The position numbers and the translations under genes were made by a program. The notes under the pieces were generated by a model. The model did not search any database. It had not been told where the DNA came from and was given only the letters and a program-made list of their open reading frames with translations. Below, one piece after another: positions 2,584 to 30,208 of a stretch of DNA of 35,681 nt. The DNA is from Thermoanaerobaculales bacterium (lineage in GTDB: Bacteria; Acidobacteriota; Thermoanaerobaculia; Thermoanaerobaculales; Sulfomarinibacteraceae), in contig JALOKS010000002.1 in the NCBI GenBank assembly GCA_025456385.1, positions 1-35,681 of the forward strand, written 5' to 3'. Position 1 is the first letter of the stretch. Every line of letters starts with the position of its first letter.

Positions 2584-2784
2584 ATGTGGACCTTCATCCT
2601 GTGGCTGATCCTGCTGGTGGTGTGCTGGCCGCTGGCGCTGCTCGCGCTGGTGCTCTACCCCGTGGTGTGGCTGCTCATGCTGCCGCTCCGCCTCATCGGC
2701 ATCACGGTCGACGCCGTCTTCAAGCTGCTGCACGCGGTGCTGACCCTGCCGGCGCGGGTGCTGCGCGGTCCCGCCAGCGCCTGA
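2584..2784 (+). CDS. small hydrophobic membrane protein, unknown function
   Basis: MWTFILWLILLVVCWPLALLALVLYPVVWLLMLPLRLIGITVDAVFKLLHAVLTLPARVLRG, strongly hydrophobic. The longer ORF begins at 2506 but ATG 2584 is the more likely start. Confidence 0.6.
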   Translation: MWTFILWLILLVVCWPLALLALVLYPVVWLLMLPLRLIGITVDAVFKLLHAVLTLPARVLRGPASA

Positions 2785-2805
2785 GGCGGCGGTCTCGCCG
2801 GCCGC

Positions 2806-3171
2806 TCAGCTGTCGAGCATGAGGCGGGCGAGCGCGCGCAGCTCCGTCTCCGGGGCCTCGGCGTAGGCAGGCATCGCGATCGGGTACTGCTCGTCGAGGT
2901 ACTTCAGCCGCGGGTTGGACTCCACGAAGCTGCGCGGGTCCCGGAGGTAGGCGACGAGTCCGTCCTCGTCCCAACGCTCGTGGAGGCCGGCGAGCGCCGG
3001 GCCCGACTTCTGCCCCTCGCGCGCAGGCCCGTGGCACTTCGCACAGCCCATGCCGAGGTAGATCGCCTCGGCGCTGCCGGGCTCGGGGCCGCTCGCGCCG
3101 CAGGCGACGAGGGCGAGCGCGGCGACGGCGGCGAACCAGAACGACGCGGACACCGAACGGCTGGCGGTCAT
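2806..3171 (-). CDS. c-type cytochrome, single haem, lipoprotein-like signal
   Basis: ORF with N-terminal hydrophobic segment ending LVACGAS and a single CxxCH (GMGCAKCHGPAREGQKSGPALAGLHERW). Confidence 0.85.
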   Translation of the reverse strand: MTASRSVSASFWFAAVAALALVACGASGPEPGSAEAIYLGMGCAKCHGPAREGQKSGPALAGLHERWDEDGLVAYLRDPRSFVESNPRLKYLDEQYPIAMPAYAEAPETELRALARLMLDS

Positions 3172-29613: not shown

Positions 29614-29637
29614 GACGATCCGCTCGTCACCAACTCG

Positions 29638-29668
29638 ACGGCGGGCTCCGGCCCGCCGTTTCCTTTCC
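29638..29668 (+). terminator. intrinsic terminator after etfA
   Basis: ACGGCGGGC-TCCG-GCCCGCCGT perfect 9-bp stem with tetraloop followed by TTCCTTTCC. Confidence 0.7.
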
Positions 29669-29710
29669 CGCGTCCGTGTCCGCGTCCGAATCCGCGTCCG
29701 AATGCCCACC

Positions 29711-29733
29711 GGCCGCGGACCGGGTCCGCGGCC
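29711..29733. repeat. perfect inverted repeat GGCCGCGGACC-G-GGTCCGCGGCC
   Basis: 11-bp arms, 1-nt centre. Confidence 0.95.
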
Positions 29734-29749
29734 ATGCGGACTCGGCCAG

Positions 29750-29783
29750 CAGGACCTCCGAACGCGAGCGTTCTGAGGTCCTG
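29750..29783. repeat. inverted repeat CAGGACCTCCGAACGC-GA-GCGTTCTGAGGTCCTG
   Basis: 16-bp arms with one mismatch, 2-nt loop. Confidence 0.95.
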
Positions 29784-29862
29784 CCGACCTCGTCCGCGCC
29801 GCGCCTGCGGCGCGCCGGCGGGCACCTCACTGAGAGGCTCGTCGATGAACGTCCCGCCCCCG

Positions 29863-29876
29863 CCCCCCCCCCCCCC
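29863..29876 (+). repeat. C14 homopolymer tract
   Basis: Run of 14 C residues read directly, inside a longer C-rich stretch 29853-29880. Confidence 0.9.
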
Positions 29877-29879
29877 ACC

Positions 29880-29920
29880 CTCGGAAATCCGTCGTGCGCG
29901 GCGCACGACGGATTTCCGAG
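29880..29920. repeat. 41-bp perfect palindrome CTCGGAAATCCGTCGTGCGC-G-GCGCACGACGGATTTCCGAG
   Basis: 20-bp perfect arms around a single G. Confidence 0.97.
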
Positions 29921-30057
29921 AGCCGGAGGTGTTCATAACCTGGCGCCGGGGTCACCTCCGATACCGTTTGGCACGACGGTCTGTGGCCTTCGCGATTTTC
30001 CGAGAGCCGGAGTTGTTTTGGACTTTGGCGCTCGCGGCTTCGATGAGCTGCTTCTGA

Positions 30058-30072
30058 GGGTGGGTGGGCGGG
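30058..30072 (+). other. canonical G-quadruplex motif GGGTGGGTGGGCGGG
   Basis: Four G3 tracts with 1-nt loops, upstream of glyQ. Confidence 0.85.
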
Positions 30073-30208
30073 AAGTCCGAAATCCGAAATCCGAAATGGT
30101 CGGACGGGTGGACGGACCGGTCGTTTTCGGTTCATCGCCTCCCAATCCCGCCGCCATGGTATATTTTCCGCTCGCGTGGCCCGCCCGCGGCAGGGCCCCG
30201 GAGGCACC

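Follow-up and report, generated by a model that had tools for sequence, protein, structure and literature searches.

The window (the whole stretch of DNA analyzed, 35,681 nt) is contig C320 of G000, a genome of 3.33 Mb in 482 contigs, and it contains a structure-packed spacer between etfA and glyQ. The first-pass annotation had this spacer run from 29614 to 30175. We note that glyQ probably starts at GTG 30209, behind GGAGG (30200-30204), rather than at GTG 30176, because homologues align only from approximately residue 8-11 of the 30176 reading; the spacer therefore probably extends to 30208. Codon scoring revealed no gene within it, which bears out the earlier view that a convincing ORF is absent. 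Gene-owned signals lie at both ends of the spacer. First, the intrinsic terminator that had been proposed after etfA is present as a terminator-like hairpin (ACGGCGGGC-TCCG-GCCCGCCGT plus TTTCCTTT); it is kept in G002, directly 3' of etfA (GGCGGGCTTCGGCCCGCC + TTTGTTGTT), and G007 has an equivalent hairpin after etfA. Second, a promoter-like stretch containing GCCGCCATGGTATATTTTCCGCTCG precedes glyQ. A generic promoter/terminator scanner called neither of the two. The features between them are one object, namely a single copy of a dispersed intergenic element, and the spacer is laid out as follows.

29638-29666, plus strand: etfA intrinsic terminator, owned by etfA and outside the element
29669-29703, no strand assigned: variable tail of degenerate GTCCGN hexamers on the outer side of the cloverleaf
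29704-29823, minus strand (the strand favored by the tests): cloverleaf core (module A), a four-way junction, from fold, covariation and strand tests
29704-29711/29816-29823: P1 closing stem of the core
29711-29733: P2 arm
about 29736-29797: P3 arm
about 29796-29813: P4 arm
29824-29849, no strand assigned: variable linker, poorly conserved among copies
29850-29879, minus strand: C-tract (G-runs on the minus strand), here fused to C14
29880-29920, no strand assigned: module B hairpin, a 41-bp palindrome, CTCGGAAATCC...GGATTTCCGAG
29997-30017, plus strand: partial second copy of the module B 3' arm, a 95% direct repeat of 29913-29933 (21 bp)
30052-30072, minus strand: inverted remnant of the module B 5' arm, an inverted repeat with 29866-29886 (86%)
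30076-30096, no strand assigned: (TCCGAAA)x3 heptamer tract; a short tandem repeat with its own dispersal, adjoining the element
30148-30175, plus strand: promoter-like region of glyQ, conserved and outside the element, recurring upstream of glyQ in G002, G003, and G004

Because GCCCGCC pairs with GGCGGGC (closing strands GCCCACCG/CGGCGGGC in the window), the first part of the element is a 120-nt four-way junction. Three further hairpins had been noted at 29711-29733, 29750-29783, and 29796-29813; all three exist, not as independent structures but as arms P2, P3, and P4 of this one junction. The fold of the 120-nt core has a z-score of -6.4 on the plus strand and -8.5 on the minus strand, and that of the 41-bp palindrome a z-score of -8.9; in neither case did any of 200 shuffles fold as well. 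Across full copies, aligned from the sequence stretches around matches, the order of modules is fixed: a GTCCGN-like tail, GCCCGCC, the CCGCGG hairpin, the long arm with a CAAG/CGAG loop, the GCGCGCC hairpin, GGCGGGC, the linker, the C-runs, and the CTCGGAAA palindrome. Tails like that at 29669-29703, varying in length and composition, precede many copies, and the inner stem of the palindrome displays paired double changes among copies.

The C14 tract, the 41-bp palindrome, the direct repeat, and the G-quadruplex motif of the first-pass annotation are all there, and they can be read as parts of the element. In sister copies, the C-tract is CCCGCCCCCnCCCCCCnCCCnCCCnCCC; column counts over 19 copies show that its runs are fixed whereas the single-base spacers between them vary, and in 15 of these 19 the minus strand of module B has a four-run G-quadruplex motif. 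In the window copy, the spacers have turned to C, resulting in the C14 tract at 29863-29876. The separate G-quadruplex motif GGGTGGGTGGGCGGG at 30058-30072 is explained by the inverted remnant of the module B 5' arm in which it lies. The suggestion of a decayed miniature element holds as far as the miniature element is concerned, but "decayed" fits the core poorly, whose stems stay paired through matched double changes; an appearance of truncated remnants is confined to the 3' part (29997-30097).

A search for dispersed copies, one of the checks proposed with that annotation, returned 58 partial matches to the spacer in its own genome and further matches in four congeneric genomes. A covariance model of the core (R1) detected at least 8, 6, 8, 50, and 12 copies in the congeneric genomes G000, G001, G002, G003, and G004, respectively; the model search scored a limited number of candidates per genome, and these counts are lower bounds. 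Weaker matches to R1 were seen in G005, G010, G014, and G017, which belong to other genera, giving nine genomes with matches in all, and none in the remaining genomes of the 60 relatives searched, including other families of the order and class. Within the genomes searched, the element is thus restricted to one family of marine sediment bacteria, that of Ca. Sulfomarinibacter (Acidobacteriota), to which the hosts are close. Many copies in G003 sit at contig ends, which is repeat-like behavior, and copies seem to break assemblies in Thermoanaerobaculia genomes. One exact-pattern scan of viral contigs detected no copy. The literature searched held no account of this element, which, as far as we could find, is previously undescribed.

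Further, we note two sister types of the window's type I copy. Type II copies have a different long hairpin after the cloverleaf; in G003 (L208 1569-2250, L192 1423-1870, and L191), this is a long GATCGCGCCGA...TCGGCGCGATC hairpin followed by further arms. Type III consists of two inverted cloverleaves with spacers of about 50-90 bp (18 loci), displays strong covariation of its own, and was found in 9 of 120 genomes, all within the same family. At type III loci (L201-L207, L220-L223, and L255-L270), ATCTGCGTGATCTGCGG-like and CTTTGTGTCTTCGTG-like repeats are common on the flanks.

The etfA-glyQ gap itself differs between relatives. The element is present there in G000 and G002, whereas the spacers of G007 (~70 bp) and G011 (~130 bp) are free of it, that of G014 has other content, and in G003 and G004 glyQ has a different upstream neighbor and no element in the 1.4 kb read. 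The element-free spacers of G007 and G011 indicate gain or loss at this site, by a mechanism that they do not show. We also note a small CxxC open frame in the G002 spacer (L026 1249-1480) and an apparent bactofilin-like gene on the opposite strand in that of G014 (L059, about 2600-3145), which imply that the etfA-glyQ gap is a frequent site of change. A regulatory spacer specific to this locus (insulator, attenuator, or an array of terminators) would agree with the terminator and conserved glyQ promoter and with the shared occupation of the site in G000 and G002. The same element, however, occurs at dozens of unrelated loci and is missing from the site in G007 and G011, and the arrangements in G014, G003, and G004 just described likewise speak against this explanation, which we consider very improbable. 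The insulator proposed in the first-pass annotation, in particular, found no support, as copies occur in both orientations, whether the neighboring genes are co-directional, divergent, or convergent. Genes were called with a home-made codon-based tool: no examined copy lay inside a called ORF, and the upstream gene was on the same strand in 34 copies and on the opposite strand in 39, on which ground a role as a 3'UTR or terminator was rejected.

Covariation, another of the checks proposed, was very strong. In 85 model-aligned copies, an alignment that was fitted to the model and hence leans toward it, double compensatory changes were seen in 36 of 36 stem pairs (451 cells compared with 118 ± 12 shuffled). 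In a plain, unfitted MAFFT alignment of 17 copies, 88% of the stem cells pair, and double changes occur in 21 of the 36 pairs (63 cells compared with 19 ± 4 shuffled). Parsimony on the copy tree gave about 140-200 double replacements, varying with the tree and cost scheme. Further, four pairs of loci from two species each look like the same locus, as judged from flanking coding sequence: the window and L026 (etfA-glyQ in G000 and G002), L006 and L142, L138 and L143, and L134 and L209. Between these, 23 stem pairs have changed to another Watson-Crick combination, compared with 14 broken one-sidedly, and 71 of 181 unpaired positions differ. We conclude that the core fold is maintained by matched double changes. 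Such compensatory base changes are what is asked of a structured RNA, and folding at the level of DNA is also compatible with them.

The strand tests consistently point to the minus strand as the one under selection. First, one-sided stem changes counted by parsimony and read on the plus strand went to A-C in 62 cases compared with 25 to G-T (p = 9e-5), and the type III subfamily displayed the same asymmetry (67 A-C compared with 30 G-T). Because A-C on the plus strand is G-T or G-U on the minus strand, pairing is kept on the minus strand. Second, in every one of 62 copies the better fold is that of the minus strand, whether RNA or DNA energies are used, and its advantage is 10.7 kcal/mol compared with 4.6 kcal/mol predicted by shuffles (RNA energies, the only case shuffled). 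Third, in these 62 copies, the minus-strand P3 loop is CTTG in 31 and CTCG in 17 (48 together), and the P2 and P4 loops are mostly GNA. Because wobbles are rare overall, we keep both an RNA and a single-stranded DNA reading of this strand.

These results bear on two other explanations. The copies could be passive palindromic repeats in which template switching between arms at replication makes or corrects perfect stems, the fold itself being unselected; compensatory changes can arise in this way without selection on function (PMC8794818). The perfect Watson-Crick stems, the excess of double changes over wobble intermediates, and the joint change of adjacent pairs would all be expected of this process. 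Template switching, however, takes no account of which strand has the better fold, whereas both element sets favor the same one, and this consistent bias speaks against it, as do loops that are conserved while stems vary and a four-arm arrangement with closing stem that is kept over many copies. We regard this origin as quite unlikely. A structured non-coding RNA, also suggested in the first-pass annotation, is possible on the minus strand. That the family as a whole is a multicopy RNA with a host function (an sRNA or RNA-protein scaffold, transcribed from the element's minus strand and built of a hairpin at the 5' end, a G-quadruplex, and a cloverleaf at the 3' end) would suit the covariation with its A-C excess (the minus strand thus tolerating G-U), the CUUG-type tetraloops, the conserved G-runs, and the positions kept between species. 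This seems unlikely to us, since orientation to flanking genes is random, copy numbers reach 50 or more per genome, an RNA would be expected to have more wobble pairs (25-62 events here compared with 160 double replacements), and no dedicated promoter was identified. Further, Rfam gave 0 matches in the window at the gathering threshold; relaxing the cutoff to E ≤ 1 added nothing beyond miRNA-model noise and one Xoo2 sRNA match, below threshold, over the terminator.

Overall, we think it likely that the element is a non-autonomous mobile intergenic repeat whose single-strand cloverleaf is recognized in trans. The functional core would be the 120-nt cloverleaf of one strand (minus in the window), and an enzyme supplied in trans would recognize the folded single strand, either as single-stranded DNA exposed at replication or as an RNA copy, and spread the element into intergenic gaps. 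Copies with failed pairing would lose mobility, which would explain why matched changes dominate. In the window, the copy is probably neutral where it lies, flanked by the etfA terminator and the glyQ promoter, and presumably has no local function. Speaking against a mobile element, the occupation of one locus in different species would also follow if copies had a host function and were retained vertically over a long time. We found no mobilizing enzyme for the element and caught no insertion in the act; no target-site duplication was found, the ends being variable and microsatellite-like and the empty sites coming from other genera only and being too diverged. Two candidates were rejected. 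First, Y1 genes, the potential RAYT partners, exist (Y1_Tnp loci in G000, G002-G005, and others), but none of them has a cloverleaf at its flanks, and the nearest significant cloverleaf is >3 kb from the examined Y1_Tnp loci. Second, a pair of copies in direct orientation in G017, separated by 4.6 kb and considered as the ends of an autonomous parent, encloses apparently ordinary chromosomal genes.

The element works like a REP/REPIN or a MITE but is assigned to neither; it has neither the unit size of REP nor, at the Y1 loci examined, the RAYT association. Like REP, BIME, and REPIN sequences (PMC3116915, PMC3733652), it is dispersed, extragenic, palindromic, multicopy, and lineage-restricted. 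REP units, which carry a GTAG or CGTC tag at one end, are hairpins of 20-40 bp, whereas the unit here is 120 nt with four helices at a junction; REPs lie mostly downstream of genes, whereas orientation and gap type look random here; and REPINs are associated with a Y1 (RAYT) gene, which does not neighbor the element at the examined loci. A REPIN has two inverted units, as does type III, which resembles a REPIN with 120-nt units, an arrangement that the window's type I copy does not show. TIRYT/TIRtron repeats are known from Acidobacteria and others, and some are partly self-complementary and often dimeric (PMC3733652); they are defined by a flanking Y1 transposase gene, and their description sets the element, which lacks that association, apart. 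Bacterial MITEs (ERIC, NEMIS, Correia, and Nezha type) are likewise short, non-coding, structured, intergenic, and presumably mobilized in trans. Clear terminal inverted repeats were not seen in the window's type (a weak inverted similarity links the outer hexamer tracts of the window copy, and type III has its inverted cloverleaves), nor was a clear target duplication; its structure, unlike theirs, is a multi-arm junction with one favored strand.

A more far-reaching reading, which we put forward as doubtful, is that of a new class of non-autonomous mobile element recognized via a 120-nt cloverleaf located 3' on the folded strand, followed by a microsatellite-like tail, and copied by an enzyme that would read structure rather than sequence, possibly via an RNA intermediate, as SINEs are; in type III, each strand would then end 3' in one such cloverleaf. 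Whereas REP-kind extragenic repeats are small simple hairpins, this family displays a multi-arm fold, one favored strand, and matched changes in many copies, and the copies are an unusually rich natural record of what a recognizing enzyme or mutation process tolerates. The covariance models can be used to find or mask these repeats in Thermoanaerobaculia genomes.

Finally, we note two kinds of neighboring repeat. In L002 (1357-1390 and 1859-1893), an element copy behind a korB-like gene has another inverted-repeat unit, AATTCGYGGCGGG...CCCGCCRCGAATT, on either side. STRR-type repeats are heptamer repeats of cyanobacteria; the (TCCGAAA)n tract is likewise a dispersed heptamer repeat but is separate from the element: about 30-40 separate matches to the stretch occur in the window's genome, and other families of the class hold some as well. 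Among other copies, TTCGAAA, AACTCAA, or CCAGCAT tracts are found as variants.
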